A stretch of DNA of 64,000 bases from Sandaracinus amylolyticus (GCF_021631985.1 NZ_CP070225.1:4278001-4342000), one strand, 5' to 3'; positions 55,197-62,412 are shown, counted from the stretch's first letter. The notes: a model not told the origin generated them from the letters alone. Made by a program: numbers and translations.

Positions 55197-56225
55197 ATGT
55201 CGAAGGGGCGGATTGGCTTGGCGATGATTGCGCTCGCCGGAGCGCTGAGCGTCGGGTGCGGTGACGACGACGGATCGACGGGGGGCACGGACGCGGGGCA
55301 GGCGGATGCGGGCTGTACGCCCATGACACCGCCCACGCTGCCGACCGAAGATCCTCCGACCGACGTCGAGTGCACGGCGCCCGACGGAGGCACGCCGGGC
55401 ATGGGCGCGTGCTGCTACGTGGACTCGCAGTCGGACGTGCAGGAGGCGCCCGAGCTGCGCCTCCGCTACCTCGAGATCAGCGCGCCGGAGGGCTCGGCGC
55501 TCACCGGGCCGGTGCTGCTCGGCGTGCTCAACAACGCGCTCGAGAAGGGCACGTTCGCGTGGCTGATCCGCGTCGAGGGCGCGGACGCCGACGGTGAGGT
55601 CACCGTGCGCACCGGCTTCGGCGTGAAGGCCGAGGACGGCACCTACGCCTTCCCGACGGGCGATGGCAGCGACCCGCTCGGCGTCGACGACGTGGAGCGC
55701 TACGGCCCCGCGGAGATCCCGGGCACGATCACGGGCGAGCGCGTGGTGACCGAGCGTCACACGGGCTCGGTCGTCGTGCCGGTGCTCAACGAGGCGGAGA
55801 CCGACGTCCAGCTCGAGCTCGAGCTGCGCAACATCCAGGTCATCGAGGGCGAGCTCAACAGCGAGCGCAGCTGCGTCGGCTGGCAGTCGAGCCGCGGTCG
55901 GTTCCAGACCGGCGCGATCCTCGACGGCTTCATCGAGGTCGAGTCGGCGCGCCAGGGCATGGTCGTGAGCGGCCCGGTCATGACGACGGTGTGCGCGGCG
56001 ATCGCGGGCCTGCTGACGCAGGCGAACTACTGCGAGGAGAACCCGCAGAGCATGTGGATCACGCAGCCCGACTCGCTCTGCACCGAGACCGGCTGCACGG
56101 CGAACGCGAGCTGCGAGGAGGACGTGTGCGATCGCGGCGGCGACAGCACGACGGGCCTTCCCGCGTGCAACGCGTGGCGTCTGGTCGCGCAGTTCGCGGC
56201 GCAGGGCGTCGAGATCACGAACTGA
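55197..56225 (+). CDS. lipoprotein, unknown function
   Basis: A 342-residue lipoprotein (SVGC) with an Asp/Gly-rich linker after the lipid Cys, a beta-rich middle (LRLRYLEISAPEGSALTGPV) and a Cys-containing C-terminus (CTETGCTANASCEEDVC). GAGGAGA precedes the ATG at 55197. No family recognised. A terminator follows, so it seems monocistronic. Confidence 0.78.
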   Translation: MSKGRIGLAMIALAGALSVGCGDDDGSTGGTDAGQADAGCTPMTPPTLPTEDPPTDVECTAPDGGTPGMGACCYVDSQSDVQEAPELRLRYLEISAPEGSALTGPVLLGVLNNALEKGTFAWLIRVEGADADGEVTVRTGFGVKAEDGTYAFPTGDGSDPLGVDDVERYGPAEIPGTITGERVVTERHTGSVVVPVLNEAETDVQLELELRNIQVIEGELNSERSCVGWQSSRGRFQTGAILDGFIEVESARQGMVVSGPVMTTVCAAIAGLLTQANYCEENPQSMWITQPDSLCTETGCTANASCEEDVCDRGGDSTTGLPACNAWRLVAQFAAQGVEITN

Positions 56226-56247
56226 CGCGCGGACGAGCGCGTGATGG

Positions 56248-56280
56248 AGCCCGCCCGGTCCGAGAGGACCGCGGCGGGCT
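56248..56280 (+). terminator. hairpin terminator
   Basis: A 14-bp stem with one bulged C and a GAGA loop, 22 bases after the lipoprotein stop. Confidence 0.75.
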
Positions 56281-56359
56281 TCGTCGTTGTGGGGCGCAAC
56301 GCGCACGGCGCGAGAGCGATGGCGGCCCGTCGCGAGTAGGCTCGCGGCGGGAGGGCTCG

Positions 56360-58003
56360 ATGCCGAAGGTGTGGGTGGGGCTGTGCGTCGCGATGGTGCT
56401 CGTGGGATGCGAGCCGGACTACGCGTGCGGCGACTTCGTGTGGAGCGAGGACCAGGGGCGCTGCGTGTGCCCGATGGGCACGACGCAGAGCGACGCGGGC
56501 ACGTGCCTGCTGAGCGACGGCGGGATGATCTTCCCGCCCGGATGGGACGGCGAGGTCCCGGGCGCGTGCCCGGATGGGCGCCCGATGCGCGAGCTCTTCG
56601 AGGACGCCGACGGTGACGGCCGCGGGCGCCCCGGCACCGGCGCGCTGCGCTGCGAAGGCGTGACCGATGGCGACGACTGCGACGACACGTGCGCCGAGTG
56701 TTTCCCCGGCGCGACCGAGATCTGCGACGGCCGCGACAACGACTGCGCGAGCGGCGCGGACGACCCGTTCGCGTGCGTGCGCGGCGCCGCGACGGAGTGC
56801 GAGACGAGCTGCGGCTCGACCGGCGTCGTCGCATGCGGGCTCGACTGCGCGGTGCCGGCGAGCGCGACGTGCACGCCGCCGGAGGAGGCGTGCGACGGAG
56901 ACGACGACGACTGCGACGGAGTGGTGGACGAAGGCGTGCTGGCCGTCGGCGAGCCGGTGGACTGGATCGCGCTCGTGGGCAACCACTTCCACGTCGAGCC
57001 GCGAACGGACGGGCTCGTCGCGGTGTGGGCGGATGACGCGGGAGTGCACGCGCGGCTCGTCGATGCATCCGGCGCGCCCGCAGGCGCGACGATCGATCTC
57101 GCGTCCACGCTCAACGCCGATCAACTGGACACCGACGTTCGCGGAACCGTGTTGTACGTCGCGTATTCGCGCGGCAGCGAGATCTACCTGCTCTCGGCGG
57201 AGCTGCCGTCCCTGACGGTCACGGCGGGACCTCGGCGGATCGCCAGCCTCGCCTCCCCGACCCACACCCTGCAGGTCGAGCACACGTACACGACGATGGT
57301 CTTCCACGACGCCGCATCGGGGAGCGGCATCCGCATGCGGTCGGGCACGAACATCGCGACGGACGCGTTCAACGAGCGGACCGCAGTCGCGGTGAGCACG
57401 CTCGAGTACGAGGTCGTGGTCCCCGCGACCTCGATCGACCGGACGTACATCGTCTACTCCGGTCGATCCTCGGAGGCCGAGGACTACGAGATCTACGTGC
57501 AGCCGGTGACCTCGCTCGGGCCGGACGGGACCGCGCACCGCATCACCGACAACGCACTGCACGACGATCGTCCGATCGTCGCCGAGCAGGACGATCGACT
57601 CGCGATCGCTTGGCTCCAGCGCGCCACGACCGGGTCCGGCACGTCGTCGTTGCAGGTCCACTCGATCGTACCGACGGCAAGCAGTCCCTGGCCGGCGGGC
57701 GACGAGGTGATGATCGGCACGATCAACGCGTTCGGCACCCACGACCTCGTGCCGTACGCGGGCGGTTGGCTCGCGATCGTCGCGCAGAGGCTGGAGATGA
57801 CCTATTCGTCGGCGGTCTCGCTCCATCCCCTTGCTCGTGACGCGCACGTCGCGGGCGAACAGCTCGAGATCGAGTCGACGACCGTTCGCTCGCTGGGGAT
57901 CGGGCGGGCCGCCGCCATCGGAACGACGCCGTGGCTGCCCCTCGCACACGCCAGCGAAGGCGGCGCGCCGAGATTCGACGCGCGCCCGGTCGGCTGTCCG
58001 TGA
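56360..58003 (+). CDS. MopE-type metal-binding-motif lipoprotein
   Basis: A 547-residue lipoprotein (LVGC). After a Cys-rich start there are two copies of the putative metal-binding motif of the MopE type: FEDADGDGRGRPG...DGDDCDDTC...GATEICDGRDNDC and CDGDDDDCDGVVDEG. The last 370 residues are beta-rich with propeller-like repeats (LVAVWADDAGVHARLVD, DDRLAIAWLQRA). GGGAGGG precedes the ATG. MopE binds copper in Methylococcus; here the motif is probably structural or calcium-binding. Confidence 0.82.
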   Translation: MPKVWVGLCVAMVLVGCEPDYACGDFVWSEDQGRCVCPMGTTQSDAGTCLLSDGGMIFPPGWDGEVPGACPDGRPMRELFEDADGDGRGRPGTGALRCEGVTDGDDCDDTCAECFPGATEICDGRDNDCASGADDPFACVRGAATECETSCGSTGVVACGLDCAVPASATCTPPEEACDGDDDDCDGVVDEGVLAVGEPVDWIALVGNHFHVEPRTDGLVAVWADDAGVHARLVDASGAPAGATIDLASTLNADQLDTDVRGTVLYVAYSRGSEIYLLSAELPSLTVTAGPRRIASLASPTHTLQVEHTYTTMVFHDAASGSGIRMRSGTNIATDAFNERTAVAVSTLEYEVVVPATSIDRTYIVYSGRSSEAEDYEIYVQPVTSLGPDGTAHRITDNALHDDRPIVAEQDDRLAIAWLQRATTGSGTSSLQVHSIVPTASSPWPAGDEVMIGTINAFGTHDLVPYAGGWLAIVAQRLEMTYSSAVSLHPLARDAHVAGEQLEIESTTVRSLGIGRAAAIGTTPWLPLAHASEGGAPRFDARPVGCP

Positions 58004-58088: not shown

Positions 58089-58146
58089 CCCTCGACGGTG
58101 GAACCGCGTGTTGCGCAATGTGCGCGAGCGTCGGGGAGGATGTTCC

Positions 58147-61100
58147 ATGAAACGCCTTGGCTCGCTTAGCCGGCCGCTGTTCGCGGTCATGCTGATCTTC
58201 ACGGTGTTCGCATGCGGCGGCGGTGGCTGCTCCGGGTGCGAAGGATGTGGCGTCGCGCCGATTCCTGGTGGCTTCCCGCTGAACCAGCGCATTCCGAACT
58301 CCGCGCAGGTGCGCCTCTCGGAGAGCGGAATCCAGTTCATCGAGGACAACATCATGAGCATCGTCGGAACGCTGCTCATGGGCGGGCTCGAGTTCGACGT
58401 TCCGCAGATGTCGGGGAGCCAGTCGATCGGCGTCGGGAACGTGTCCTACACGCTCTGCACGTCGAACGACTGCGTCGCGCGCGGTGAGATCCAGGACCTC
58501 GATCTCACGCCGCAGAACGGCTCGAATCGCCTCTCGGCGCTCATCCAGGTGATCCTCGACAGCCGTGACTCGGCCGGGAATCGCCGGGCGATCCCTGTCC
58601 GGCTGCGGGGATCAGGAGTGCTCTTCTGGCTCGACACCACGTGCCAGGCCGACATCGACACGAGGAACGGGTCGCGCTCGCACATCGGGTTCGCGGCGGA
58701 CATCGACTTCGTGGAGGAGACGCGGGCCCCGCGTACCGGCTACACGCGGCTCACCGTCGCGAGCGCCGACTTCGCCGAGGGTCAGGACATCGAGAGCGAC
58801 GACATCGACATCGGCGGCTGCGACGGGCTCGATGGCGGAATCATCAACGGCGTCATCGGCCTCGTGAAGGACCAGCTCCTGGGTGCGCTCACCGGTCAGA
58901 TCACCCCCGTTCTCACCGACGCGATCGACTCGCAGCTCTGCACCCGTGCCGGCGAGACCGGCTGCCCGACGCCGGGCTCGCGGCCCGATGGCGAGGGCCC
59001 CGACGCGACCTGCGTGTTCGAGTCGGCCCCCGATCAGTGCGTGCCGATCCTCCTCGGCACCGACGGGCGCGGCGATCTCGGCAACGCCTTCCTCGGCGGG
59101 TTCTCACCGGGCACGCACGGACACGGACAGTTCGTGCTCGGCGCAGGTGGCGACGGCGAGGCCGTGAACAACGGCATGTCGCTCTTCATGGTGGGCGGGT
59201 TCATGTCGATGGATCCGACGTTCACCACGTCGCCCGGACACAACCCGTGCGTGCCGGTCGTCGAGCCGCCCTGCGTGCCCGGCGGTGAAGGCGCGGAGGG
59301 CTGCAGCATCGCGCGCGCCGAGGCGTTCCGCGGCAACGTGATCCCCGGCACCTCGACGACCTCGCACGTCGGGATCGGCATCGCCGAGGACTTCCTCGAC
59401 TACGCGGGCTACGGGATGTTCGACAGCGGCATGCTGTGCATCGGCGCGGGCACGCGCCTGAGCCAGCAGCTCTCGACCGGTCTCGTCTCGGGCCTCGTGC
59501 CCTCGCTGAACACGCTGACGTTCCCCGAGCGCGGCTCGCCGCTCACGCTCGCGATCCGTCCGCAGCTCCCGCCCGACTTCACGATCGGCACGAACGCGGG
59601 CGCGCCGCTGCTCACCGTGTTCCTCGAGCAGGTGCAGATCGACTGGTACGTGTGGAGCACCGAGCGCTACGTGCGCTTCATGACGTACCAGACCGATCTC
59701 ACCATCGAGATCAACCTGGACGTCGAAGCGGGCGAGATCGTGCCGCGCATCGAGGGCGTGACCGCGTCGAACTCGATGATCTTCAACAACGAGCTGATCA
59801 CCGAGAACCCCGACACCGTCGCGCGCGCGGTCGAGAACGTGCTCGGCACGTTCGCGGGCATGCTCGGCGGCTCGATCAGCCCGATCGCGCTCCCCGACAT
59901 CATGGGCTTCGAGCTCGACGTGCCGGCGGAAGGCATCCGCGGTGTCGCCGACGGCGGTGAGTCGTTCCTCGGCATCTTCGCGAACCTGCGCATCGCCGGC
60001 TCGGCGATCGTGTCGCCGGTCGAGACGAGCCTCGAGGTGTCGGACCTCGAGCTCGATCACGAGAGCATGGCGCTCGAGACCTGGGCGCAGGGCGACGGCA
60101 ACACCGTGTGGCTCCACTTCGGCGCAGAGGGCGCGCCGAGCTCCGACTACGAGTACAGCTATCGCATCGACGGCATGACGTGGTCGCGCTGGACCAGCGA
60201 TCCGCGCGTGCGCATCGACGACGACGTCCTGCTGCTGCAGGCGCGCCACGTGATCGAGGCGCGGGCGCGCATCCGCGGCGAGGCCGACTCGGTCGACCGC
60301 AGCCCGGCGCGCACCGAGCTCATCGTCGACGTGCTGCCGCCCGAGGTGCAGGTCTCGAGCGAGGGCACCGGCTTCGTGGTGCACGCGAACGACCTGATCA
60401 GCGCCGCGGAGCAGCTCGAGTACCGCTTCCGCGTACGCGACGGCGAGTGGAGCGCGTGGCAGGTGTCGCCGCGCTACGAGCCCGACACGCTGCTGGTCGA
60501 CGGCGGCATGCTCGGCATCGAGGTGCGCGACGAGGCAGGCAACGTGACCTCCGCGACGTTCCCGCTGATCCGCGGCATCCCGAACCCGAACGGCGGCGGC
60601 TGCGACTGCGGCGTCGCGGTGGGCGGCACCGATCGCAACGGACCGCTCGCGCTCGTCGGATCGATGCTGCTCCTCGGCGCGATGGTGGTGCGCCGCCGTC
60701 GCACGATCGATCGCTCGAAGCTCCGTCGCCTGCTGACGATCGGGATGCTCCTGCTCCCGCTCGTGCTCGGCGCGCAGGGCTGCGAGTGTGGTGGCGAGAG
60801 CGGGCCGCCGTGCGGCGACATGTGCATCGCGGCAGCGCCGCCCGGCCTCACCGCCGGTCAGATCTGCTGCGAAGAGACGAACATGTGCGCGAGCTACGAC
60901 GTGGACGCGCTCTGTCAGCCGGGCTTCACCTGCCCGATCGCGAACCTCGTCGTCGGCACCGGCTGCGCGGTCACGTGCAGCGAGTGCATGCGCAAGCCGC
61001 CGCTCCAGCAGGGCATGATCGGCACCGATCTCGATCTCGTCGTGAGCGAGAGCGGCGAGCAGTTCGTCAGCGGGTACAGCGCGGGCGTGCCCACGACGCA

Positions 61101-62346
61101 GCGCTACGGCGATCTCGTGCTCGGCACGATCTCGGCGGGCGGTGACGTGGAGTGGGAGATCGTCGACGGCGCGCCCGAGCGTCCGGTCACCAACGATCCC
61201 GACGGCTGGCGCTCGGGCGTGAGCGCGCCCGGCGACGACGTGGGTCGCTGGACCTCGATCACCGACTCGGGGACGAGCCTCTACATCGCGTACTACGACG
61301 CGACGAACGGCGCGCTGAAGCTCGCGATCGGATCGCCGGGCGCGTGGGAGACCCACACGGTCGACGACACCGGTGACGCGGGTCGCTACGCGTCGATGGT
61401 CCTGCTCGATGGCGGCGTGCCGGCGATCGCGTACATGCGCGTCGAGGAGAATGCTGCGGGCTCGGGCCAGCCGCGCAGCACCGTGCGCGTCGCGGTCGCG
61501 AGCGACGCGAACCCGACCAGCGAGACGAGCTGGACGATCACCGAGGTCGCGGGCGCGGACATCTTCTGCCGCCCCGACTTCTGCGGCACCGGCCAGGCCT
61601 GCCTCGAGAACGGGTCGTGCGTCGTCCCGACGAGCGACTGCGCGGACGACTGCGGCGACAACCAGTGCTTCATGGGCACGTGTGAGGCCGCGCTTCCCGC
61701 GAACTACGTCGAGGATCTCCCGCCCGCGTACGGCCTCTACACCGCGCTCGCGCGCACGCCCTCGGGCGGGCTCGTGGTCGCGTGGTACGACCGCGGCCAG
61801 GGCAACCTCCACGCGTCGGAGCTGCCGAGCATCGGCGGCACGTGGGGCACGCCGATCCTCGTCGACGGCTACGCGCGCGGCGACGACTCGAGCTCGGGCG
61901 ACAGCGGCATCGGCACGTCGATCTTCGTCGACGCGGCGGGCACCGTGCACGTCGCCTACGTCGACGGCGCCGAGGAGGCGCTGCGCTACGTGACGATCGC
62001 GGGCGGCGTGGCCTCGGTGCCGCAGACGATCGACACCGGCACGAGCGACGGCACGACGCCGCACACCGACGGACGTCACGTGGTCGGCGACGACTCGTCG
62101 ATCGTCGTGACCGACGGCGGCGAGATCCGCGTGACCTACCAGGACGCGACGGTGCAGCACCTCATGCTCGCGCGTCGTGCCGCGGGCGGCGGCGAGTGGA
62201 CGGTCTCGGTGCTCGACGACGAGAACCACACCGGCTTCTGGGCGGAGCAGGTCCTGATCGGCACCACGTCGTACGTCGCGACGTGGTGGCGCCAGGAGTC
62301 GCGCGCCGCGTCGGAGCAGGGCGTGCGCGTGCTGACCGTCGAGTGA
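58147..62346 (+). CDS. giant lipoprotein with internal MYXO-CTERM-like tail and second lipobox
   Basis: A 1399-residue protein. Start at 58147 with GGGGAGGA upstream; signal region MLIFTVFAC then CGGGGCSGCEGC. Residues to about 815 form one beta-rich part with Ig-like repeats near the end (YRFRVRDGEWSAW). Then CDCG (Cys819), a hydrophobic helix (ALVGSMLLLGAMVV) and RRRR (849-852), the three parts of a MYXO-CTERM signal, followed by a second lipoprotein-like signal ending at LGAQGC (Cys879). The rest looks like a beta-propeller secreted protein with Cys motifs. An ATG at 60745 could start the second part separately. Confidence 0.8.
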   Translation: MKRLGSLSRPLFAVMLIFTVFACGGGGCSGCEGCGVAPIPGGFPLNQRIPNSAQVRLSESGIQFIEDNIMSIVGTLLMGGLEFDVPQMSGSQSIGVGNVSYTLCTSNDCVARGEIQDLDLTPQNGSNRLSALIQVILDSRDSAGNRRAIPVRLRGSGVLFWLDTTCQADIDTRNGSRSHIGFAADIDFVEETRAPRTGYTRLTVASADFAEGQDIESDDIDIGGCDGLDGGIINGVIGLVKDQLLGALTGQITPVLTDAIDSQLCTRAGETGCPTPGSRPDGEGPDATCVFESAPDQCVPILLGTDGRGDLGNAFLGGFSPGTHGHGQFVLGAGGDGEAVNNGMSLFMVGGFMSMDPTFTTSPGHNPCVPVVEPPCVPGGEGAEGCSIARAEAFRGNVIPGTSTTSHVGIGIAEDFLDYAGYGMFDSGMLCIGAGTRLSQQLSTGLVSGLVPSLNTLTFPERGSPLTLAIRPQLPPDFTIGTNAGAPLLTVFLEQVQIDWYVWSTERYVRFMTYQTDLTIEINLDVEAGEIVPRIEGVTASNSMIFNNELITENPDTVARAVENVLGTFAGMLGGSISPIALPDIMGFELDVPAEGIRGVADGGESFLGIFANLRIAGSAIVSPVETSLEVSDLELDHESMALETWAQGDGNTVWLHFGAEGAPSSDYEYSYRIDGMTWSRWTSDPRVRIDDDVLLLQARHVIEARARIRGEADSVDRSPARTELIVDVLPPEVQVSSEGTGFVVHANDLISAAEQLEYRFRVRDGEWSAWQVSPRYEPDTLLVDGGMLGIEVRDEAGNVTSATFPLIRGIPNPNGGGCDCGVAVGGTDRNGPLALVGSMLLLGAMVVRRRRTIDRSKLRRLLTIGMLLLPLVLGAQGCECGGESGPPCGDMCIAAAPPGLTAGQICCEETNMCASYDVDALCQPGFTCPIANLVVGTGCAVTCSECMRKPPLQQGMIGTDLDLVVSESGEQFVSGYSAGVPTTQRYGDLVLGTISAGGDVEWEIVDGAPERPVTNDPDGWRSGVSAPGDDVGRWTSITDSGTSLYIAYYDATNGALKLAIGSPGAWETHTVDDTGDAGRYASMVLLDGGVPAIAYMRVEENAAGSGQPRSTVRVAVASDANPTSETSWTITEVAGADIFCRPDFCGTGQACLENGSCVVPTSDCADDCGDNQCFMGTCEAALPANYVEDLPPAYGLYTALARTPSGGLVVAWYDRGQGNLHASELPSIGGTWGTPILVDGYARGDDSSSGDSGIGTSIFVDAAGTVHVAYVDGAEEALRYVTIAGGVASVPQTIDTGTSDGTTPHTDGRHVVGDDSSIVVTDGGEIRVTYQDATVQHLMLARRAAGGGEWTVSVLDDENHTGFWAEQVLIGTTSYVATWWRQESRAASEQGVRVLTVE

Positions 62347-62368: not shown

Positions 62369-62412
62369 AAGCGGCGAGCGCCCTCGAGAGAGGCGCTCGC
62401 CGCTTCGCTTTT
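62369..62412 (+). terminator. Rho-independent terminator
   Basis: A perfect 14-bp stem (62369-62382 with 62392-62405), nine-base loop and a following CTTTT. It is the only hairpin of this window on the plus strand with a good T run. Confidence 0.82.

Follow-up and report, generated by a model that had tools for sequence, protein, structure and literature searches.

How does a sorting signal that normally closes a protein come to stand in the middle of one, directly ahead of what looks like a second lipoprotein signal? The question is raised by a gene at 58147–62346 (+) of the window, the 64,000-nucleotide stretch of the Sandaracinus amylolyticus genome analysed here (GCF_021631985.1, NZ_CP070225.1:4278001-4342000). 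An initial, sequence-only reading had recognized a MYXO-CTERM pattern inside the encoded protein and had offered three explanations: two secreted proteins have become fused, the product is a polyprotein that is cut at the sorting signal, or two genes are read through in frame. The gene translates as a single stop-free open frame of 1,399 residues, found in the same fused form in relatives; we call the parts on either side of the junction half A and half B. The start ATG at 58147 is well placed behind a Shine-Dalgarno sequence (GGAGG, 58135–58139), and the first residues of the frame form a lipoprotein signal peptide with a lipobox (LIFTVFAC, Cys23; 58147–58215), a Cys-rich lipobox start that relatives share. 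The stretch after Cys23 is unusually rich in cysteine (CGGGGCSGCEGCG, within 58147–58260). Directly 3' of the gene, at 62369–62405 (+), a strong inverted repeat read by eye (AGCGGCGAGCGCC...GGCGCTCGCCGCTT) is followed by a short T-rich stretch (CGCTTTTC); it is likely a transcription terminator. Just upstream, at 55991–58003, lies a plus-strand frame in which the MopE metal-binding motif is recognised (PF11617, E 3.4e-8); a long frame on the minus strand, for which no match was found, overlaps it.

The junction is built from two complete signals placed tail to head. The motif GGGCDCG, which holds Cys819 and Cys821, is followed by a hydrophobic helix (helix 1) and by RRRR at residues 849–852, so that a Cys motif, a hydrophobic helix and an Arg cluster are all present (60592–60702). 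Scored against the MYXO-CTERM model TIGR03901 (curated cut-off 20 bits), this segment, residues 816–852, reaches 16 bits within the whole protein, 24 bits once excised and 23.2 bits when the genome is scanned in six frames, so that the first value lies under the cut-off and the other two over it. After RRRR come a short basic linker and a second hydrophobic stretch (helix 2; 60703–60780), then the lipobox LGAQGC, whose Cys879 (60781–60783) is the predicted mature N-terminus of half B, and 520 more residues. The second signal thus has a basic n-region, a hydrophobic core and a lipobox cysteine, RRRRTIDRSKLRR-LLTIGMLLLPLVLGAQG-C. Translation bears out the MYXO-CTERM pattern of the initial reading, and the second signal that it placed immediately after the tag is there as described. 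The tag stands 547 residues short of the C-terminus.

The same order of elements, a MYXO-CTERM-like Cys, a helix, an Arg cluster, a second helix and a lipobox Cys, was found in all 35 junctions of fused homologues that were parsed, with linkers of a few to about 50 residues. Because it is kept in 35/35, we judge the junction to be beyond chance. One divergent fused paralogue (L044, genome G036) has lost the usual GCGC/CxC motif (SCAYAG in its place) and retains the helices, the Arg cluster and a lipobox-like Cys; its tag may have changed. In a comparison of this genome with its nearest relative, half A has a dN/dS of 0.10, the MYXO-CTERM segment one of 0.12 and half B one of 0.19, which indicates that both bodies and the tag are under selection. 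The value for the linker and helix 2 is 0.82, based on 26 codons only; as judged from this value, the second signal appears weakly constrained in sequence, unlike in character. Signal peptides are usually freer in sequence.

If an error of sequencing or assembly had removed a stop between two adjacent genes, the fused frame should be peculiar to this record. It is not. Matches were found in 40 of the 56 relatives searched, mostly in one stop-free frame, and when frames were checked one by one about 35 of the 56 carried the fused, stop-free form. Among 79 loci from named genomes (Sandaracinus, Sorangium, Polyangium, Minicystis, Labilithrix and others), which overlap the 56 relatives in that some records are the same genomes, 64 were fused (including L232, L269, L270 and L272), 10 were cut by contig ends, 4 carried half A only and 1 was split. 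Distant fused relatives are present in a second order. Since the same frame and junction recur in dozens of independent genomes, complete ones included, a missing stop, which the initial reading had named as a possible undoing of its proposal, is refuted as an explanation.

Each half also exists apart from the other. Eight A-only paralogues, of which L031 lies in this genome, have their C-terminus just behind the Arg cluster, and the segment that is internal in the fused protein forms an ordinary C-terminal MYXO-CTERM in them. Half B occurs as a separate gene (L043), and two further loci carry A and B as separate, overlapping genes (L042 in genome G021, overlapping at TGATG, and L266, with an offset of -4); in these separate B genes the lipoprotein signal is N-terminal. 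The search for separate homologues of each half that the initial reading had proposed therefore succeeded, and its option of a fusion of two secreted proteins holds, since each half has such homologues. It had also allowed that homologues might carry the helix within a normal membrane domain. In the A-only paralogues the helix is instead the C-terminal tag, bounded by conserved Cys and Arg residues, which rules out an ordinary membrane domain. In a quick, midpoint-rooted tree, A-only paralogues branch at several places inside fused clades; this suggests that the fusion is old in the order and that A-only copies arose from it repeatedly.

Sequence searches of both halves against Pfam, NCBIfam and the PDB gave nothing solid, and we therefore compared predicted folds. 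For half A, no Pfam match exceeded the cut-off, the best being PF01273 with an E-value of 0.062, in 2 of 33 members. Its AlphaFold2 model (m3ad82ebcfe58, pLDDT 86.9) predicts two TULIP domains in the arrangement of BPI (58252–60054, approximate limits). Human BPI is the top Foldseek match (1bp1, E 5.5e-18, TMt 0.67), with LBP and CETP also among the matches. Two Ig/fibronectin-like domains follow (60094–60573, approximate limits), as indicated by strand order in the model and by FnIII/Ig-type Foldseek matches. Half A thus shares the two TULIP domains with the BPI/LBP/CETP family, but is bacterial, is a lipoprotein, carries the two extra Ig-like domains and has only about 12% identity to that family. 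The model of half B (60781–62343, pLDDT 91.5) is a beta-propeller behind a Cys-rich start. Its top Foldseek matches are PLL/PHL propeller lectins and sialidase folds, with about 10% identity, so that the likeness concerns the fold alone. Half A is accordingly predicted to be a lipid-anchored double-TULIP protein kept across the order, and it is possible that it binds lipid or LPS. A BPI-like lipid-binding protein on a bacterial envelope would be of interest in itself.

To see whether an internal tag leads to a lipobox in other proteins as well, a profile of the hairpin (helix 1, Arg cluster and helix 2) would be circular, because the lipobox is built into it. We therefore used scans with TIGR03901, a model that ends at the Arg cluster, and collected all its matches in this genome. 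The cut-off was exceeded by 65 matches. In 60 of them the protein ends no more than about 33 residues further on; the remaining 5 are internal, and each is followed at once by a second hydrophobic stretch with a lipobox, as are two sub-threshold internal matches in this genome. In four other genomes, 2 of the best 30 matches are internal, and a lipobox follows in both. One match (L129) has no Cys and was discarded as false. The hairpin profile then retrieved further tandems, in all ten genomes of the family. The tandems form eleven groups, about nine of them unrelated, and also occur in a second order. A candidate new family, F12 (L209), proved to be a distant relative of the window's own family and was merged with it. 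The phylum-wide scan scored 32 candidates per genome, which makes it informative on presence and silent on absence. First halves of other tandems include an N-acetylmuramoyl-L-alanine amidase, a nidogen-like protein and a heparinase-like protein, and the second half of one group is a GDSL lipase. Three MYXO-CTERM genes of this genome (L066, L070 and L121) have directly downstream a lipoprotein gene that they overlap by 4 bases (ATGA type); such pairs are the unfused form of the tandem. The initial reading had treated the arrangement as a feature of one protein, and the recurring class is the new part.

The enzymes that could process such a chain are encoded in this genome: the myxosortase MrtC (NF040594, 242.5 bits; cut-off 195) and two LspA proteins. 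In M. xanthus the related enzyme MrtX cleaves MYXO-CTERM, and this cleavage also takes place in E. coli (PMC11980579). We propose the following sequence of events. The N-terminal lipoprotein signal of half A would direct that half into Sec export; transfer would be stopped by helix 1 of the internal tag, with RRRR left in the cytoplasm, and helix 2, acting as a further lipoprotein signal, would re-start it. The Arg-rich loop would thereby have two roles: it would anchor helix 1 on the cytoplasmic side and provide helix 2 with its basic n-region. By the positive-inside rule Arg clusters are cytoplasmic, and the rule predicts a two-helix hairpin with both Cys sites outside. Because helix 1 would stop transfer and helix 2 re-start it, Cys819/Cys821 and Cys879 would face the periplasm on either side of this hairpin. 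MrtC would cut half A after the lipidated MYXO-CTERM Cys, Lgt and LspA would lipidate the chain and cut it before Cys879, and the hairpin would be discarded. The products would be made 1:1: A, a BPI-like lipid-binding fold with lipid at its N-terminal end and probably also at its C-terminal end, and B, a propeller with lipid at its N-terminal end. Mature half A could thus carry lipid at both ends, from its N-terminal lipobox and its MYXO-CTERM, and both proteins may sit at the cell surface as partners. Of the options of the initial reading, the polyprotein is the best supported, and we assign a probability of roughly 0.75 to the proposal that this gene makes two lipid-anchored envelope proteins as one chain, with the hairpin excised by MrtC and LspA. 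Weighing against it are the whole-protein TIGR03901 score below the cut-off, the start codons near the Arg cluster in some members and the weak sequence constraint on the linker and helix 2.

Two other readings of the same frame have to be weighed against this one. The A+B chain might stay uncut, or be cut at one site, with the helices forming a permanent membrane hairpin that tethers two exported domains. Such a hairpin would be a legitimate membrane anchor, and cleavage, including the action of MrtC at an internal signal, is a prediction. However, a permanent hairpin would need neither Cys site, yet both are kept in 35/35 junctions. A protein consisting of half A alone bears the same tag at its C-terminal end, and every internal tag found in the unbiased scan leads into a lipobox rather than into any hydrophobic helix. 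We therefore consider an uncut or singly cut chain unlikely.

Alternatively, translation of B might begin separately, at an internal start close to where A ends, which would in effect make the locus two overlapping in-frame genes. In the window, ATG/GTG codons stand immediately ahead of RRRR, and a start there would produce a plausible lipoprotein signal; the amidase pair (L132, L191) has an ATG directly before RRRR, and the split relatives use overlapping start and stop codons. The ATG at 60745, where the initial reading would have looked for ribosome loading, falls within helix 2; Cys879 is 12 residues further on, and no positive charge follows the ATG, which makes it a poor start for a signal peptide. 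Against an internal start as the rule, about 9 of the 22 parsed family junctions contain neither ATG nor GTG nor TTG in the stretch from helix 1 up to the lipobox, and the same is true of seven further junctions (L204, L196, L197, L203, L201, L205 and L209), which include members of several other groups. Shine-Dalgarno pairing is also weaker at the internal candidates, with a mean of -4.0 kcal/mol compared to -7.7 kcal/mol at gene starts and a best value of -2.6 in the window. Moreover, as there is no stop, ribosomes translating A would still make A+B. The many junctions without a start codon, together with the weak pairing, rule out internal initiation as a general rule, and for this gene we regard it as quite improbable, less so in single members. 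One fused homologue (L006, genome G004) differs from the others: its junction contains an ATG, 27 residues ahead of the second lipobox, that comes with a very strong Shine-Dalgarno sequence (-12 kcal/mol). In members with a start codon near the Arg cluster, such as this one, B might also be made separately.

The polyprotein reading can be extended beyond this gene. A MYXO-CTERM and a lipoprotein signal joined tail to head around a shared Arg cluster may well be a general polyprotein device of myxobacteria, in which a myxosortase and LspA would cut an excisable hairpin from both sides and release two separately lipid-anchored partners in equal amounts. The device would have been adopted by about nine unrelated pairs and would be interchangeable with overlapping gene pairs; we hold this broader proposal with somewhat less confidence than the reading of the gene itself. 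The architecture combines two known signals, recurs and is conserved across orders. It bears on the action of myxosortases at an internal site, on the order of lipidation and cleavage and on the lipidation of the MYXO-CTERM Cys, and it predicts that the members of about nine protein pairs, mostly uncharacterised proteins of the envelope, are physical partners. Both signals are missed by annotation tools that look for a sorting tag nowhere but at the C-terminus and for a signal peptide nowhere but at the N-terminus.

Bacterial polyproteins that are cut into two secreted proteins are, to our knowledge, rare. In the cytochrome b/c1 polyprotein FbcH, a single bacterial chain is cut at an internal signal peptide to give two envelope proteins; that cut is of the signal peptidase I type, with no sorting tag before it and no lipoproteins among the products. 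TraB of M. xanthus is, as far as we know, not a lipoprotein, and we know of no second lipoprotein signal in the archaeosortase substrate whose sorting signal is internal. A close case is MXAN_5598 of Myxococcus xanthus, like A+B a single protein whose MYXO-CTERM is internal; processing at that tag has been proposed, and a gene fusion is a possible origin (PMC11980579; Guo, Haft and Wall 2025). As presented in the sections of that paper used here, it is a single atypical case, and its C-terminal part is an outer-membrane beta-barrel with OmpA domains, not a second lipoprotein. Those sections do not report a tandem class of MYXO-CTERM and lipobox, which may be mentioned elsewhere in the literature. 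An archaeosortase substrate with an internal tripartite signal (Abdul Halim et al. 2017, as cited in PMC11980579) is likewise a case of a non-C-terminal sorting signal that is processed, but it is archaeal and its enzyme differs from myxosortase. The split forms have a parallel in TraA/TraB of M. xanthus, described in the same sections as overlapping genes (PMC11980579): a MYXO-CTERM protein is made together with a downstream envelope partner, from two genes in TraA/TraB and from one frame in A+B.
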